Shown here in pieces: positions 13,028 through 43,066 of a DNA stretch of 64,000 nt (position 1 is its first letter; the number at the start of each line of letters is the position of its first letter). This stretch comes from Planotetraspora mira (GTDB taxonomy: Bacteria; Actinomycetota; Actinomycetes; Streptosporangiales; Streptosporangiaceae). The position numbers were made by a program, and so were the translations under genes. The notes under the pieces are model-generated. The model saw only the letters and a program-made list of their open reading frames with translations, was not told where the DNA came from and did not search any database. The stretch is taken from assembly GCF_016863275.1 (NCBI RefSeq), contig NZ_BOOO01000030.1, positions 124,001 through 188,000 on the forward strand, in the 5' to 3' direction.

Positions 13028-13072
13028 GCGCGCACTCCGGAGTACCCCGCTTGACCTGGCATTTCATCGGAC

Positions 13073-13177
13073 GCGATCATGCATTTCGCACATCCCGTCC
13101 CACCCGCCACATCGGCAAGCGTGATCATGCAAACCTTCCAGATTCGACCGGCCTCAACGCGTTACGTGATCATGCAC
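13073..13177. repeat. Degenerate TGATCATG array (array E)
   Basis: Three same-orientation cores, GCGATCATGC (13073), GTGATCATGC (13121) and GTGATCATGC (13166), spaced 48 and 45 bp. This is the family seen at 31, 36, 41 and 42 kb, but with shortened units. It fills the gap between the amine oxidase start and the M55 peptidase stop; the last core ends 6 bp from that stop. Confidence 0.8.
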
Positions 13178-19771: not shown

Positions 19772-20665
19772 CCGGTGCAGACGCAGGCGCAGGCGGCTCC
19801 GAATCAGTCGAGTCGCAGCCGGGAGAGCCCCGAAAGGACGAGTCGGCGGCAGTCGAATCCGGCCACGGATCAGTCACAGGCGGGGAACTCAATGCCGAAC
19901 TACCGTCGGACGACCACGACCTCGCCCGGGCCGTCACCTCGGCCCACCACTCTGAACCGCACGGCATTTCCCCTGCACCGAATGAAGATGAGGGGTGCCG
20001 CCCTCGTGTTCCGGCCACGCCAACCCCTCTCCATCAAATCGAAAATCTAACCTAATAATCTCACGGAGAGTAGTCATTCCGCTACGATTTTCGAACAGAA
20101 TTTCTATCTGCTGGCCGGCGGCTTGTTCGGGTAGGTCGGTGGGATTCGGCGCACTCGCTACCGTCGACGGACGGCTGTACGCACACGACGACGTGCAGCC
20201 CCATGACGTTCAGATCAATGGAGCGGACTCCGGCCGAGAATTATGGACCGAGTCTAGAGCGGTCGCGATTGACGCCTCGGGGGCCACGGCCGACAACCGC
20301 TCGTCGGATACAAGCGGGACCGCGCATGATCACAAACGCTGCTACGGCCAGCCGACACGTACCCATCGAGGCCGCACGGCAACAGCCGCAGACGCGGCTG
20401 TACTGCATCGACCTCGATGTGCGGGTACTGCGTGCGGTCGAAGGCAGTGAGGCGGGAGGTCGTGCATGATCACGCTGTTGAGGGGGCAGCGCGAAGCGGC
20501 TCATCCGTCACAAACTCACCCCCGTACCGGGTGTGGCGATCTCGCACAACGTCGAGACCGCCACAACCGGCGACGCACCGCCACCCCGCTACCCGCCACC
20601 GGCCAGGCGCCGATCGGCGTCACCCGGCGGCCGCTGACCAACGTGCGGTCAGGATCTGGGCTCCT
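19772..20665. other. 894-bp region without a convincing gene
   Basis: It lies between the DUF222/HNH start and the glgP stop. Short overlapping frames occur on both strands but none has a clear ribosome site or recognisable domain. It holds two cores of the TGATCATG repeat family and an AT-richer stretch near 20035-20105. It may be an eroded insertion or the upstream region of the DUF222 gene. Confidence 0.5.
20325..20473. repeat. Two isolated TGATCATG cores (array F)
   Basis: CATGATCAC at 20325-20333 and 20465-20473, both in reverse orientation and 140 bp apart. The second has the full GTGCATGATCAC core. No 53-bp periodicity remains, so this looks like a decayed array. Confidence 0.6.
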
Positions 20666-29026: not shown

Positions 29027-31174
29027 ATGGACTTGGACCGGCTGGCAGGCGGGGCGCACCACGACCCCCACTCGATCCTCGGCGCGCACCTCGAGCAGGA
29101 CGGCGTGACGATCAGGGCGCTTCGGCCCTTCGCCGAGAAGGTCGAGGCGCTGATCGACGGCCGGCCGCATGAGCTGCACCACACGAGCTTCGGGGTCTTC
29201 GAGGTCTCGCTCCCCGGTGTGGACAAGATCCCCGACTACCGGCTGCGGGTCGCGTATCCGGGTGCCGAGCCGTACGAGACGGGTGACCCGTACCGCCACT
29301 GGCCGACACTGGGCGAGATCGACCTGCACCTCATCGGCGAGGGACGCCACGAGCGGCTGTGGGAGGTGCTGGGCGCGCGCGTCCTACGCCACGAGGACAC
29401 CGACGGCACGGCGTTCGCCGTATGGGCGCCCAACGCCCAGGGTGTGCGGGTGATCGGCGACTTCAACCACTGGAACGGCGGCGGGCACCCGATGCGCTCG
29501 CTCGGCCGTTCGGGCGTGTGGGAGCTGTTCATCCCCGACATCGGGGCCGGCTCCCGCTACAAGTTCCAGATCCTCGGGATGGACGGCGTGTGGCGGGAGA
29601 AGGCCGACCCGATGGCCCGCCGTACCGAGGTGCCCCCGGCGACCGCCTCGATCGTCGAGCAGCCGGACTACGCCTGGCGCGACGAGGAGTGGCTGGCCGA
29701 CCGCGCGGGCCGCGACGCCCTGGCCGAGCCGATGAGCACCTACGAGGTCCACCTCGGCTCGTGGCGTCCGGGCCTGTCCTATCGGGAACTGGCCACCCAG
29801 TTGGTCTCCTATGTGAAGGACATGGGCTTCACGCACGTGGAGTTCCTGCCGGTGGCCGAGCACCCGTTCGGGGGGTCGTGGGGCTACCAGGTGACGTCTT
29901 ACTTCGCCCCGACGTCGCGGTTCGGCTCGCCCGACGACTTCCGCCACCTGGTCGACGAACTGCACCAGGCGGGCATCGGCGTGATCGTCGACTGGGTCCC
30001 CGCGCATTTCCCCATGGACGAGTGGGGGCTCGCGCGCTTCGACGGCACGCCGCTCTACGAGCACGCGGACCCGGCGCGCGGCGAGCACCCCGACTGGGGG
30101 ACCTACGTCTTCGACTTCGGCCGCCGCGAGGTCCGCAACTTCCTGGTCGCCAACGCATTGTTCTGGCTGAGGGAGTTCCACATCGACGGGCTGCGTGTGG
30201 ACGCCGTGGCCTCGATGCTCTACCTGGACTACTCGCGCCGCGAGGGCGAGTGGACGCCCAACATCCATGGCGGCAGGGAGAACCTCGACGCGATCGAGTT
30301 CCTCAAGGAGATGAACGCCGTCTGCTACCGCGAGGTGCCGGGGATCGTGACGATCGCCGAGGAGTCGACGGCCTGGCCCGGTGTGTCACGACCCGTCCAC
30401 CTCGGGGGGTTGGGCTTCGGCTTCAAGTGGAACATGGGCTGGATGCACGACACCCTCAACTACCTCGCGCGTGAGCCGGTCTTCCGGCAGTACCACCACC
30501 ACCAGATGACCTTCTCCCTCATGTACGCGTACTCGGAGAACTTCGTGCTGCCCCTCTCGCACGACGAGGTGGTGCATCTGAAGGGGTCGCTGCTGGGCAA
30601 GATGCCCGGTGACGAATGGCAGCGCTTCGCCAATCTCCGGGCGCTCTACGCGTTCATGTGGGCCCACCCCGGCAAGCAACTGCTGTTCATGGGCGGCGAG
30701 TTCGGCCAGGGCGCGGAGTGGTCGGAGTCGAAGGGGCTCGACTGGTGGGTGCTCGACTTCGACTTCCACAAGGGTGTGCAGCGCCTGGTCCGTGACCTGA
30801 ACCGGGTCTACCGGGAGACGCCCGCCCTGTTCACGCAGGACGCCGCCCCGGACGGCTTCCGCTGGATCGACGCCGACGACGCCTCGGGCAACGTCTTCTC
30901 CTTCCTGCGGTACGGCACGGACGGCTCGATGCTGGCCTGCATCGCCAACTTCTCCGGTGGGGCGCACGAGAACTACCACCTCGGCCTCCCGGTCGGCGGC
31001 CGTTGGGAGGAGATCGTCAACACCGACGCCTACGAGTACGCGGGGAGCGGCGTCGGAAACCTCGGCACCGTGGACGCCGTGGACGTCCCCCACCACGGCC
31101 TGCCGTACTCCGCCCGCCTCCGTGTCCCCCCACTCGGCGCCGTCTGGCTGCGAAAGTCACCCCCCTCCCCGTGA
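29027..31174 (+). CDS. glgB: 1,4-alpha-glucan branching enzyme
   Basis: A 715-residue GH13_9 enzyme adding alpha-1,6 branches. The N1 and CBM48 domains (about 1-230) include [11 protein letters not shown] and [20 protein letters not shown]. The catalytic barrel has [18 protein letters not shown], nucleophile Asp in [19 protein letters not shown], acid/base Glu in [11 protein letters not shown] and [13 protein letters not shown] 29027 is preferred over ATG 29003, as AGGGTAAAG precedes it. Its TGA stop (31172-31174) lies inside the first core of a repeat array, so the last codons abut mobile-looking DNA. Confidence 0.95.
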
Positions 31175-31505
31175 TCATGCACCCACCGCGTGATGCGCCC
31201 ACCGCGTGATCATGCACAGGTTCGGCCGCAGCCCCCGCGACCAGCCCCAACCTTGCTCGTGATCATGCACACTCTCGGGCGAACGCCGTCTGACCAGCGG
31301 AAACTCCGACCGTGATCATGCGCGGATTCGGTGGATAGCGGGCCGACGTGGCGCTTCGCCGTACGTGATCATGCATGACGTAACCGGGTGCATGATCACG
31401 AAGCGTGTCACCCCAGCCAGGGTGCGGTTCACTCGAATCCGTGCATGATCACGGACGCGATAACCCCAGGTCCGGCCACTGATCGACGAATGTGTGCATG
31501 ATCAC
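31171..31505. repeat. Mirrored 53-bp-period TGATCATG array (array A)
   Basis: Forward cores GTGATCATGC begin at 31171, 31206, 31259, 31312 and 31365; the last four are exactly 53 bp apart. The array then flips: reverse cores CATGATCAC begin at 31391, 31444 and 31497, again exactly 53 bp apart. Sequence between cores is only partly conserved. The array fills most of the gap between glgB and the SppA-like gene. The first core contains the glgB stop codon. Confidence 0.95.
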
Positions 31506-31545
31506 CACCAAGGTGGGGGGGCCGCCGTCGCCTATGGTGACATTT

Positions 31546-35836: not shown

Positions 35837-35856
35837 GCCCCCCGCCCCTTCCCGTC

Positions 35857-36153
35857 GTGATCATGCACAGGTTCGGGCGGATGCCCTCCCACCTGCGCGA
35901 ACCCATGCCGTGATCATGCACATGTTCGCAGACTTGTCCCCCGGCCTGCGTATTTCCAGTCCGTGATCATGCGCAGGTTCTGTGACGTACGGCCTGGCCT
36001 GCGATTTCAGTGTTCGTGATCATGCACGGTCGGCCGTGCATGATCACGAACGTTACTTCCCCAGGCCGGCGACCCCATTGACGAATCCGCGCATGATCAC
36101 GAAATGCGTTCACGCAGGTCACGCCGCCTTTCCGCGAACCTGTGCATGATCAC
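35857..36153. repeat. Mirrored 53-bp-period TGATCATG array (array B)
   Basis: Forward cores GTGATCATGC begin at 35857, 35910, 35963 and 36016, all exactly 53 bp apart. Reverse cores CATGATCAC begin at 36039, 36092 and 36145, also exactly 53 bp apart. The flip point (36016-36047) is a nearly perfect 32-bp palindrome. Most units also carry CAGGTTCG after the core and ACCTGCG about 30 bp further on. It occupies the region between the flavin reductase start and the osmolyte-binding protein stop. Confidence 0.95.
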
Positions 36154-36187
36154 GCGGAAAGGGGCGGGAAAACGGGGGTCGGTGCGG

Positions 36188-39871: not shown

Positions 39872-41110
39872 GTGTCCTCATCGCTCACCGGTCAGCGCTC
39901 GCGGAGCGAACTGATCGCCGAGCTCTACGAGCGTCACGCCGCCGGGCTGTTCGCGTACTGCCACGACCAGTTGGGCGAGTCGACATCCGCGGGCGACGCA
40001 CTGGTCGCGGTGTTCACCGGCGTCCCGACGGTCGAACCACCACCCCGTGCCGCCCTGTACGCCCTGGCTCGTCGCGAGATCTACCGCAGGGACGTCAGCT
40101 ACGCCCTGCCTTCCGTCGACTCCGTCGCCGACCCCGCCACCGCGCTGATCGAGCGGGTCTTCCGTGACATCCGGCCCCACCAGCGCGAGGTGCTGCTGCT
40201 GTCGGCCGTCTGCGGGCTGAACACCCCCGAGATCGCCGTCGTCCTCGACGTCGCCGCCGACACCGCGGAGGAGCTCACGTTCGGGGCGCAGCGGCGCTTC
40301 GTCCAGACTCTCGAGACCGCGACGGCGGCCGCCCGTTCCGCCCCGTACGTCGCTGCGGACGTGGCGGAGGTCTACGACGCGATCGGGGTCGCCCCGGTCG
40401 CGGACATCCTCGCCCGCCTGCCGTGGCGCCGCCCGGTCGCCGCGATACGCGGCCGGGTGTTGTCGTCTCTGATCCTCGAAGAGTCGGGCGTGGGCGACGG
40501 CCCCCTCAAACTGTCCGCCAAGAAGTTGTGGCCCACGACTCCCACCTGGCCGTTGCCCCTGAGCAACCCGGACCAGGCGACGGACACCGTCCTGGTGCAG
40601 ACCGACCCGACCCCGGCATCGGAGGCGCCGGAGCCGAGGCGCAAGGCCAAGCACGAGGCCATGACCCAGCCCATGCCCAAGGTGCGAGGGTCGATCCTCA
40701 ACGCTCTCGGCGACAGCCGTACGCGCCGGAGGAGGGCACCCGAGCCGGCGCCGGAGGCTTCCGCCCCGGTGCAGGCCGATGCGACCTTCGACGCCTTCCG
40801 CCCGGTCGAGCCGGAGCGCGCGCAGGACACCGAGATCTCGACGCCGGTGGCCGAGGCTCTGGTGGGCACGCCACCGGCGCCCCCCGCTCCCACCGAAACG
40901 GACCTGCCGCAAAACGAGCCGGCGGCGACCGTAGAGGTCGAGACGCCGGAGCAGCAGGCGGCAAAGCCCGGGGCTCGCCTCAAGAAGCGCAAGAAGGCCA
41001 AGTCGGGCGAGCGCCACTACGACTGGTTGTGGGAGCTCGTGGGCTTCCTGATCTGCCTGGCCATCGCCTTGATCGTGTTCTTCAGCGTCCCCACGATCGT
41101 CACCCACTAA
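39872..41110 (+). CDS. Sigma-70-like protein with C-terminal membrane anchor
   Basis: A 412-residue protein. About residues 10-75 resemble ECF sigma region 2 (ELIAELYERHAAGLFAYCHDQ), and about 90-145 resemble region 4 (IRPHQREVLLLSAVCGLNTPEIA followed by VAADTAEEL). Both are degenerate in the DNA-contact positions. A long Pro/Glu/Ala-rich linker (about 225-375), a basic patch (KKRKKAKSGERHYDW) and one terminal membrane helix (LVGFLICLAIALIVFFSV) follow. It may be a membrane-held sigma factor released by proteolysis, or a sigma-derived regulator that no longer binds promoters. The start is GTG 39872 behind AGAGGAGAG. Confidence 0.75.
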   Translation: MSSSLTGQRSRSELIAELYERHAAGLFAYCHDQLGESTSAGDALVAVFTGVPTVEPPPRAALYALARREIYRRDVSYALPSVDSVADPATALIERVFRDIRPHQREVLLLSAVCGLNTPEIAVVLDVAADTAEELTFGAQRRFVQTLETATAAARSAPYVAADVAEVYDAIGVAPVADILARLPWRRPVAAIRGRVLSSLILEESGVGDGPLKLSAKKLWPTTPTWPLPLSNPDQATDTVLVQTDPTPASEAPEPRRKAKHEAMTQPMPKVRGSILNALGDSRTRRRRAPEPAPEASAPVQADATFDAFRPVEPERAQDTEISTPVAEALVGTPPAPPAPTETDLPQNEPAATVEVETPEQQAAKPGARLKKRKKAKSGERHYDWLWELVGFLICLAIALIVFFSVPTIVTH

Positions 41111-41144
41111 GCCCGCCGCGATCCAACCCCGCCGCCCCCCGCGC

Positions 41145-41315
41145 GTGATCATGCACAGGTTCGGAGAGTTGCCCGCCGACCTGCGCAAACCCCGCGCGTG
41201 ATCATGCGCAGGTTCGTGATCATATTGCATGACCTGCGCAAACACTCGCCGTGATCATGCGCAGATTCGCGATCAAGGCCTCTCACCTGCGACGACGATG
41301 TTCGTGATCATGCAC
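41145..41315. repeat. 53-bp-period TGATCATG array, left arm (array C)
   Basis: Forward cores GTGATCATGC begin at 41145, 41198, 41251 and 41304, exactly 53 bp apart, plus an extra GTGATCAT at 41216. Unit order and sequence match the reverse complement of array D on the other side of ltp2; the first unit differs at only 2 of about 62 positions. It lies between the sigma-like gene and the ltp2 stop, which are convergent. Confidence 0.95.
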
Positions 41316-41340
41316 GGATGGGGCTTTTCGCGGCACCGCC

Positions 41341-42513
41341 TCACCCTTGCGACAGGATGAGGCCACTCGTGGGAACCCCCGTACCGGCCGTGACGAGGAC
41401 GTTCTGTACGCCTGCGACCTGATTGACAGCAGTCCCCCGGATTTGCCGTACGGCTTCCGCTATGCCATTCATGCCGTGAATGTAGGCCTCGCCGAGTTGA
41501 CCTCCATGCGGATTGACGGGCAGATGACCGTCGATCTCGATGCCGCCGTCCTGAATGAAGTCCTTCGCCTCACCGTGGCCGCAGAATCCGAGTTCCTCGA
41601 GCTGATTAAGAACAAATGGCGTGAAATGATCATAAATGATGGCCGTCTGAATTTCTGATGGAGAAAGCCCGGATTTCTCCCACAATTTACGGCCAACTAC
41701 GCCCATTTCCGGAAGACCACTCATGTCGTCTCGGTAATAGCTCGTCATCATCATCTGCCCCGAGCCCGACCCCTGGGCGGCCGCAGCGATCACCGCGGGT
41801 GAGCGACGAAGATCCCTGGCGCGCTCGGTGGTGGTGACCACCAAGGCCACGGCGCCGTCGCTCTCCTGGCAGCAGTCCAGCAGATGCAGCGGATCGACGA
41901 TCCACTTCGACGCCTGATGCTCGGCCAAAGTGATCGGACGCCCATAGAACCAGGCCGCCGGGTTCGTCGAAGCATGCCGCCGCATGGCCACCGCCACCCG
42001 GCCGAAGTCTTCGGACGTAACGCCATATTGGTGCATATACCGGCGCGCGAACATGGCAACCCAGGCCGCAGGCGTTATCAGCCCGTACGGCACATGCCAG
42101 CTCATTTCGAGCCCCTGAGAGGACGGCTCGCCACTGAGCCTCGCATTGGGCTGGCCGAAACGCCGGCCCGACCGTTCGTTGAACGCGCGATAACAGACCA
42201 CGACCTCGGCGGCCCCCGTCGCGACCGCCATTGCGGCATGCAGAACCGTGCCGCAGGCGGCGCCACCGCCGTAATGCACTCGGGAGAAAAAGGACAGATC
42301 GCCAATGCCCACCTCGCGGGCGACGGCGATCTCGTCGTTGGAGTCCTGCGTGTAGGTGACCATGCCGTCCACATCGGACGGCGAGAGCCCCGCGTCGTCG
42401 AGCGCGGCGAACACCGCTTCGGCGGCGAGTTGCAACTCCGAGCGCCCGGACTCCTTGGAGAACTCCGTCGCGCCGATGCCCGCGACAGCCGTACGGCCGG
42501 ACAGGGAGCTCAT
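41341..42513 (-). CDS. ltp2: Thiolase-like aldolase Ltp2 (steroid side-chain cleavage)
   Basis: A 390-residue SCP2-thiolase-type protein. In mycobacteria Ltp2 partners ChsH2 in the retro-aldol release of propionyl-CoA from the C17 steroid side chain. Seen here: VAGIGATEFSKESGRSELQL, VHYGGGAACGTVLHAAMAVA, HVPYGLITPAAWVAMFARRY, and the C-terminal GHGEAKDFIQDGG, NPHGGQLGEAYIHGMNGI. The genes upstream are chsH1 and chsH2, in the mycobacterial igr order. Parts of the gene (about 41440-41720) look AT-richer than its neighbours, and it is bracketed by inverted repeat arrays C and D, so its local history may differ from the rest of the operon. Confidence 0.9.
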   Translation of the reverse strand: MSSLSGRTAVAGIGATEFSKESGRSELQLAAEAVFAALDDAGLSPSDVDGMVTYTQDSNDEIAVAREVGIGDLSFFSRVHYGGGAACGTVLHAAMAVATGAAEVVVCYRAFNERSGRRFGQPNARLSGEPSSQGLEMSWHVPYGLITPAAWVAMFARRYMHQYGVTSEDFGRVAVAMRRHASTNPAAWFYGRPITLAEHQASKWIVDPLHLLDCCQESDGAVALVVTTTERARDLRRSPAVIAAAAQGSGSGQMMMTSYYRDDMSGLPEMGVVGRKLWEKSGLSPSEIQTAIIYDHFTPFVLNQLEELGFCGHGEAKDFIQDGGIEIDGHLPVNPHGGQLGEAYIHGMNGIAEAVRQIRGTAVNQVAGVQNVLVTAGTGVPTSGLILSQG

Positions 42514-42529
42514 GGACTCACCCCTTCTG

Positions 42530-42697
42530 CATGATCACGAAAACGGTCGGTGCAGGTCAATGACGTTGATCGCGAAAGTGCGCATGATCACGGCGAGCGT
42601 TGCCGCAGGTCACGAGACATGATCACGAACTTGTGCATGATCACGCGCGGGGTTTGGCCAGGTCGGCGGGCAACTCTCCGAACCTGTGCATGATCAC
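42530..42697. repeat. 53-bp-period TGATCATG array, right arm (array D)
   Basis: Reverse cores CATGATCAC begin at 42530, 42583, 42636 and 42689, exactly 53 bp apart, with an extra core at 42618. Read in reverse complement, its units align in order with array C. The array starts 16 bp upstream of ltp2 and runs into the 3' end of chsH1, whose last codons it encodes. Confidence 0.95.
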
Positions 42698-43066
42698 GGC
42701 GGAGGCGGTGACGTGGGGGCCGAGGCTGACCGCGCCTGTCACCTCGATGACGGCCTCGTCCTCCTCGACGGTCGCCACGGTGCCGGAGAAGGTCAGGGTG
42801 TCGCCCGCGTAGGCCGGCACGCCGAGTTTCACCTTGATGCCGCGGAACAGGACCTCGGGGCCGGCCCAGTCGCTGACGTACCTCTCGACCAGGCCGACCG
42901 TCGTGAGGATGTTCAGAAAGATGTCCTTCGACCCCTGCGCCTTCGCGATGGCCGGGTCGTGGTGGACCGGCGTGAAGTCCCTCGTCGCGAGAGCGGTCGA
43001 GATCACGACCGTGGGCGTCAACTCGATCGTGAGGGGCGGCAGCACGCTTCCGGCGACGACCTGCAT
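42641..43066 (-). CDS. chsH1: MaoC-like steroid enoyl-CoA hydratase subunit ChsH1
   Basis: A 141-residue hot-dog protein that in mycobacteria pairs with ChsH2 to hydrate the steroid side-chain enoyl-CoA. The hydratase motif is ALATRDFTPVHHDPAIAKAQ, then GSKDIFLNILTTVGLVERYV. ATG 43066 has GGAGGAGG upstream and overlaps the chsH2 stop. The family core ends near GPHVTASA. The remaining residues, VIMHRFGELPADLAKPRA, are encoded by the TGATCATG repeat array, so the C-terminus has been rewritten and is slightly longer than the about 129-residue mycobacterial protein. Confidence 0.9.
   Translation of the reverse strand: MQVVAGSVLPPLTIELTPTVVISTALATRDFTPVHHDPAIAKAQGSKDIFLNILTTVGLVERYVSDWAGPEVLFRGIKVKLGVPAYAGDTLTFSGTVATVEEDEAVIEVTGAVSLGPHVTASAVIMHRFGELPADLAKPRA

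Follow-up and report, generated by a model that had tools for sequence, protein, structure and literature searches.

The stretch of DNA analysed as a whole (the window) comprised 64,000 nucleotides of the Planotetraspora mira genome (G000). Within it, two repeat arrays, C and D, faced each other across ltp2, each located at the 3' end of another gene:

39872..41110, plus strand: sigma-70 region 4-like gene (weak match, below the Pfam cut-off), with array C behind it
41144..41315, plus strand: array C, four cores at a 53-bp period, starting 33 nt past the end of the preceding plus-strand gene
41341..42513, minus strand: ltp2, a thiolase-family gene (Pfam Thiolase_N and Thiolase_C_1), between arms C and D
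42527..42698, minus strand: array D, four cores at a 53-bp period, overlapping the maoC 3' end
42641..43066, minus strand: maoC-like gene, with array D at its 3' end

Array C had plus-strand cores (CGTGATCATGC[A/G]C) at 41144, 41197, 41250, and 41303, and array D had minus-strand cores, one of them ending in G, at 42527, 42580, 42633, and 42686; every spacing in both arrays was 53 bp, and TGATCATGC occurred 28 times in the window versus 0.36 expected. The two arms (41144-41314 and 42528-42698) were 171 nt long, displayed 87% complementarity, and were separated by a gap of 1213 nt, in agreement with the earlier note, which had described oppositely oriented arrays homologous unit by unit on either side of ltp2; its further observations were borne out as well, since the first units were nearly identical (C1/D1 differed at 2/53 positions; the likeness was 83% for C2/D2 and 77% for C3/D3) and the second units of both arrays harbored the same extra core CGTGATCAT. 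C scored 129.5 against D, and its score with the right arm of any of 19 other pairs did not exceed 88.0; the own partner beat the best stranger in 7/20 array pairs and did not in 13/20. A bracketing score, comparing the 330 nt upstream with the 330 nt downstream of a gene, was applied to 830 genes of 650-1300 nt (simple gene calls of our own in stretches of three Planotetraspora genomes): ltp2 had the highest score (115.5), and the only other gene above 16.0 was an AbiEi/MTES_1575 nuclease gene (47.0; see below).

The outermost D core (first D unit, window 42641-42698) was translated in frame, forming the C terminus of MaoC, and the TGA in the second D core (42633-42645) served as the maoC stop codon. 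C and D faced each other because their upstream genes pointed towards each other across ltp2. In the congener G001, arm D had additional cores at its outer end (L085:2841-2945), separated by short spacers rich in CCCAAGG, apparently a new local amplification; the core layout of this locus (L085) was a mirror image of that of the Planotetraspora locus L004.

The earlier note had proposed that ltp2 was inserted into an array center, or that the arms allowed the segment to invert or be exchanged, and had called for relatives to be compared for arms without ltp2 or ltp2 without arms. maoC was located directly upstream of ltp2 in 75/80 loci (74/79 outside Planotetraspora), and arrays were present at 1/80 of these ltp2 loci (Planotetraspora L004 only; 12 others had one isolated core). 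The gene pair lacking arrays outside the genus, the arms came to a pre-existing maoC-ltp2 pair, and insertion of ltp2 was not supported; of the linkages to be compared, ltp2 without arms was found outside the genus, and the arrangement was the same in all five Planotetraspora species examined. Inversion was likewise not supported, with ltp2 lying in identical orientation between facing cores in 5/5 species. Exchange gained some support: the outer units C1/D1 were 96% alike in G000 and 92% alike in G004, while the inner units followed orthology between species, a pattern suggestive of exchange between the two arms. The ltp2 locus of the congener G002 retained one core per side; its D-side core had the inner flank of the innermost G000 core and the outer flank of the outermost one, as if whole units between cores had dropped out.

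A dispersed repeat family at gene 3' ends

Further members of the same family were identified in the window, and the earlier note's remark that the arms of arrays A and B nearly meet was correct, their inner core starts being 24 and 21 bp apart:

13072..13177, plus strand: three cores in a short run, at spacings of 48 and 45 bp, with 2 mismatches in the first core
20322..20474, minus strand: two cores, 140 bp apart
31170..31506, cores on both strands: array A, five plus and three minus cores, arms almost meeting
35856..36154, cores on both strands: array B, four plus and three minus cores, arms almost meeting

The 12-mer core CGTGATCATGCA had 684 exact copies in the 9.03-Mb P. mira genome (0 for a reversed control), 940, 242, 612, and 751 copies in four congeners, and 0-6 copies in 36 other genomes. 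Across 1.22 Mb of the own genome, same-strand neighbor cores were exactly 53 bp apart in 169/184 cases, and 56/72 core runs had 3-6 cores, none being longer than 6. The consensus of 182 units was composed of the core (positions 1-13), TTCG (17-20), and GACCTG (35-40), with the remainder freer. A single-unit RNA hairpin was rejected, since the 30 column pairs that scored highest in these 182 units showed no base-pairing pattern and Rfam gave no match at gathering scores within the window. The information content had no peak at 10.6 bp. Paired cores with a spacing of about 53 bp occurred in 8/150 genomes of the family and 7/296 of the class, single chance-like pairs being counted; these paired-core genomes included G078, G182, G241, and G300, and the sequence behind the core varied from genome to genome.

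The gene context was determined for 56 arms of at least three cores, again with simple gene calls of our own: (i) one arm (1/56) lay wholly inside a called gene; (ii) 37/56 lay behind a co-directed gene, 34 of these 37 within 60 bp of the gene end; (iii) in eight arms the core's own TGA was used as the gene stop; and (iv) solo arms lay behind a co-directed gene in 16/19 cases. Array loci occupied 12/155 convergent, 21/493 tandem, and 3/178 divergent gaps. The leader from stop codon to first core contained 58% C and 16% G (22 segments), compared to 36% and 34% after 1023 genes. The same 3'-end rule was obeyed by 34/56 outer cores of G300, G182, and G241 together (14/20, 13/24, and 7/12, respectively, in stretches chosen around arrays), compared to 4/56 on the other strand (2, 1, and 1) and 231/8000 random positions.

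Cores remained intact while spacers diverged, and the inner cores were separated by 13 bp in 5/20 array pairs. Eleven of the 12 arrays of G000:C1 were also present in G003, and fresh copying was therefore not seen; array G000:C1:60117-60492 was missing in both G003 and G002, where the corresponding sites held >1 kb of other sequence, and a similar array was present in G004, making gain with replacement possible.

Two other origins or identities were considered. For a phage origin, three viral-contig pattern matches proved on reading to be unrelated repetitive DNA, and no nuclease relative was confirmed among 38 pattern matches checked. The S. coelicolor ArgR box table has entries with 10-mers resembling the core, including CCGTGATCATGCACCC near SCO5864 (PMC5839063), which is perhaps a stray core; the ArgR box was set aside as the identity of the core because the core tracks the nuclease.

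The nuclease gene framed by facing arms

Besides C and D, 0.78 Mb of the own genome contained one pair of gene-spaced facing arms (G000:C30:191789-193171), and it held the following gene:

G000:C30:191949-193025 (L105:3949-5025): nuclease gene of 358 codons, AbiEi plus Vsr-type domains, 4 kb past the window end

The cassette idea of the earlier note thus failed for ltp2 and held for this gene, about 25 kb away on the same contig and between the same arms. The G000 nuclease matched Pfam AbiEi_1 and the MTES_1575 REase domain at scores above the cut-off; MTES_1575 is described as a Vsr-fold domain and received its name in work on conflict systems (PMC3710099). Three proteins were scanned: the MTES_1575 score was above the Pfam cut-off of 38.2 in G000 (40.7) and below it in G241 (34.0) and G300 (21.1), while AbiEi_1 was matched in G000 and G241 and AbiEi_4 in G241, and the G300 protein had no AbiEi match at E <= 0.01. 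Profile matches to solved structures (PDB) had E values of 1.7 and 3.9 and were not significant. The conserved E, D, and EYDG residues of the nuclease domain were present in 9/9 aligned proteins; identity to the G241 protein was 34%, and that between G241 and G300 was 45%.

A three-protein profile search of 16 genomes gave nine strong matches (E <= 2.1e-94), one close nuclease each in G000, G001, G003, G004, G136, G182, G241, G300, and G390, which belonged to four families. Facing cores stood on both sides of all nine, those of G136 having one mismatch; the G300 and G241 nucleases, from two other families, were enclosed by arms that faced each other and comprised four and three cores. With all 90 sites of G300 listed, 27 facing neighbor sites were found, 24 of them <150 bp apart and two >19 kb apart, and the sole gene-sized facing interval held the nuclease.

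Close nuclease copies numbered one per genome and occupied the same place across Planotetraspora and in G136; neither several mobile copies nor target duplications (the latter sought by eye only), as of an insertion sequence, were found. The neighbors of the nuclease, where an AbiE type IV toxin-antitoxin system would have its AbiEii (DUF1814) toxin gene, are by reading presumably a P450-like gene and a GDP-mannose dehydratase-like gene. Cassette positions (L224-L232, L255-L265) looked stable within lineages: by our assignment of the neighbors, the site ran from P450 to dehydratase in Planotetraspora and G136, before a relA-like gene in G241, G180, G380, and G453, and before a clpX-like gene in G182 and G033.

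The nuclease had no match in G002 in the profile search, while the other four Planotetraspora genomes had one. The place occupied by the nuclease gene in the congeners, and in G136 of another genus, was a junction located within a contig in G002 and contained one decayed unit with two mutated cores. Exact cores (GTGATCATGC) at the 12 array sites of G000:C1 numbered 75 in G000, 66 in G003, and 18 in G002, with 11/12 sites occupied in G003 and 9/12 in G002; genome-wide, G002 had 242 exact cores versus 612-940 in four congeners, a comparison that concerns one lineage. G002 is a natural knock-out, with the gene absent and the arrays eroded.

The repeat sequence tracked the enzyme. The main core of G136 was GTGATCTTGCA (50 copies versus 28 of GTGATCATGCA), which stood on both sides of the nuclease cassette, and three congeners had one copy of GTGATCTTGCA each. 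G155, a congener of G136, had no nuclease match and no close facing pairs; G197, a congener of G241, had only weak nuclease matches and no close facing pairs; and G390, a congener of G300, had both nuclease and repeats, with a different tail. Co-occurrence had one exception: G078 had 824 cores, yet no matching nuclease was found (L184, L234), its sole nuclease-family match (E 1.2e-38) being flanked by other arms in an assembly that was 98% complete. Its partner nuclease may be missing, diverged, or unassembled.

A class survey with nine proteins at E <= 1e-55, scoring six candidates per genome, gave 58 places in 44/394 genomes. Of 52 further places, 12 were examined: eight had long inverted arms around the gene, with differing arm cores (GTTGATCATGCA, GCTGATCATGCA, TGATCAAGCA, or unrelated), and four had none, among them L260 with only a 21-nt pair. 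The weaker paralogs did not contain the Planotetraspora core, but most had facing arms of other sequence. Bracketing scores exceeded 16.0 at 32/39 superfamily loci, compared to 2/830 Planotetraspora genes, one of the two being the nuclease; the 39 loci were 27/30 profile-search loci (the short matches L237, L242, and L248 being left out) plus 12 survey loci, with orthologs included and thus not independent. As a control near arrays of other genera, five non-nuclease genes of 174 exceeded 16 and the 99th percentile was 27.8, a value exceeded by 26/39 superfamily loci. Seven of the 39 lacked bracketing above 16.0, and five of these (G008, G007, G056, G116, and G086) fell within the tree group that also holds the arrayed enzymes. 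In the protein tree, TGATCATGCA-type facing cores on both sides were found in 13/39 rows, all in one group of 22 (13/22 inside the group, support 91/93, and 0/17 outside); the TGATCATGCA label required 5 changes on the tree versus a mean of 11.2 for shuffled labels.

Arm copies of nine weaker paralogs were counted in stretches of the own genome and of two other genomes (own/other/other): (i) 2/0/0, 0/0/0, and 0/0/0 for G300b, G300c, and G300d, with no further copy of the G300c and G300d arms in the 127 kb examined; (ii) 4/0/0, 1/0/0, and 3/1/0 for G241b, G241c, and G241d; and (iii) 15/0/0, 4/2/0, and 2/0/2 for G182b, G182c, and G182d, the last having as many copies in one foreign genome as in its own. 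In G182 (L211-L217), a second repeat family (CAGAATGCTGG...CAGCATTCTG) was located between the arms of several arrays and matched the arms of paralog L243. The arms of the sister paralogs c, L244 (G300) and L245 (G390), shared the hairpin sequence CAGAGAAGTGGGGCACCT.

Interpretation of the arrays

C and D are probably ordinary copies of the dispersed 3'-end repeat family of a two-part nuclease-plus-repeat system, facing each other across ltp2 by chance. Part one of the system would be the single-copy AbiEi plus Vsr-type nuclease (MTES_1575) gene with arms of its own repeat facing each other around it, and part two would be tens to hundreds of dispersed repeat copies, mostly right behind stop codons. 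We infer that the N-terminal DNA-binding part of the nuclease would recognize the core, that the enzyme would cut or nick at arrays, and that repair or copying would thereby add, exchange, spread, and maintain units; core and tail would therefore be kept alike inside each genome and drift from one genome to another. Intact cores with diverging spacers also fit plain selection for binding sites.

Alternatively, the arrays could be selected 3'-end sites kept for a host function (termination, 3' RNA processing, or chromosome organization) and used, with no copying, by a domesticated DNA-binding enzyme. This explanation accords with arrays that follow stop codons after a leader rich in C and poor in G, are oriented along transcription, keep their cores intact and their spacers free, have a 53-bp period of about five helical turns, never exceed 6 cores per run, and share positions among several species; we nevertheless consider it unlikely, because repeat and tail differ between genomes and are alike within each, units are exchanged between arms and tandem copies, the nuclease domain has conserved E, D, and EYDG residues in 9/9 proteins, and the paralogs have their own repeats. 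The arrays might instead mark the host chromosome, with the nuclease attacking array-less DNA or cells that lose arrays (self-recognition or addiction): an AbiEi Pfam match, a Vsr-type domain named in a conflict-systems study (PMC3710099), and the patchy distribution (44/394 genomes at E <= 1e-55) point this way, but G002 without the gene still keeps eroding arrays, and arrays are located at gene ends rather than evenly spread, so that we give this reading a small probability.

An ltp2 cassette, with the gene inserted between the arms or the segment inverting, would account for the strongest bracketing among 830 genes and for arms homologous unit by unit, but it is hardly credible when maoC adjoins ltp2 in 74/79 loci outside the genus where arms are absent, 5/5 species have one orientation, and each arm is simply behind the end of a gene. 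Mycobacterial-type MIRUs are tandem units of varying number beside stop codons, and the arrays could likewise be plain minisatellites without a partner enzyme, their unit number too varying between species and the bracketing of the nuclease being coincidental; this is very improbable against the bracketing of 9/9 close nuclease relatives, the nuclease in the sole gene-sized facing interval of 90 G300 sites, the erosion of repeats where the gene is absent, and the matched core change in G136.

The two-part nuclease-plus-repeat system may extend beyond one pair. It is about an even call whether actinomycetes possess a second, RAYT-unrelated solution, in which each gene of an AbiEi plus Vsr-type nuclease superfamily is framed by, and co-evolves with, 3'-end repeats that it spreads and maintains, with several such pairs per genome and one family nested in another's arrays. 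To our knowledge, REPIN-RAYT is the only known case of dispersed extragenic repeats with a dedicated enzyme; here, several actinomycete families have an enzyme with domains unrelated to those of RAYT that is found together with repeat families, is framed by them, and changes in step with them. Should this hold, repeat-plus-enzyme systems arose more than once, the reason why compact genomes keep repeat populations for so long can be tested independently (a natural knock-out, G002, comes with the system), and there are hints where to seek the enzymes of repeats now listed as orphans.

Comparison with known systems

A search of the open-access literature found neither the arrays nor the pairing of such an enzyme with repeats reported. 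MIRUs share with the arrays tandem units, variable unit number, and a position beside stop codons, but the arrays here have inverted arms and a partner gene, and we know of no framing enzyme for MIRUs.

EDxHD homing endonucleases have the Vsr fold. The nuclease had a weak profile match (E 1.7) to 3r3p, a mobile intron protein according to its entry, which we take to be I-Bth0305I. The EDxHD homing endonuclease I-Bth0305I recognizes a target of nearly 60 bp (PMC3943268), comparable to the 53-bp unit here, and may resemble the nuclease in class; it differs in having one site instead of repeat arrays, and the sequence link is not significant. Inverted repeats of 23 bp are the binding sites of AbiEi proteins, and in one case the two repeats of a pair are separated by 13 bp (PMC7319586); similarities to the AbiEi antitoxins here are the AbiEi_1 domain match and the 13 bp between inner cores in 5/20 array pairs, and they differ in that AbiEi is here joined to a nuclease domain and faces hundreds of dispersed sites. 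Inverted-repeat binding by AbiEi and the ~60-bp recognition by EDxHD enzymes may serve as leads for the mechanism and are not tests of it.

CGTC-tagged REPs are likewise REP-like dispersed repeats, described as apparently without a dedicated transposase (PMC3733652), and their sequence differs from that of the arrays here. The REPIN-RAYT system (PMC3116915, PMC3733652, PMC8049555) has (i) a single-copy enzyme framed by its own repeats, each paralog having its own repeat; (ii) dispersed extragenic inverted pairs downstream of genes, with repeat ends supplying stop codons; and (iii) vertical inheritance, with repeats more numerous where the enzyme is kept. The system here shares a nuclease framed by its own repeat (9/9 close relatives and 32/39 superfamily loci), dispersed extragenic copies downstream of genes and often in inverted pairs, and fewer repeats where the nuclease is lost (G002), G078 being a counter-example. 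It differs in its enzyme, an AbiEi plus Vsr-type nuclease versus the Y1/HuH transposase RAYT, and in its repeats, which have a core without the GTAG tag and, in Planotetraspora, tandem fixed-period arms of mostly 3-5 cores. A search of 24 genomes for Y1_Tnp (PF01797) gave matches in G001 (4), G136 (3), and six other relatives, and none in 9/11 array genomes (G000, G002, G003, G004, G078, G182, G241, G300, and G390), so a RAYT/Y1 transposase was rejected as the array partner. With the RAYT enzyme not found in these nine, the system is therefore not a REPIN-RAYT, though it works like one.
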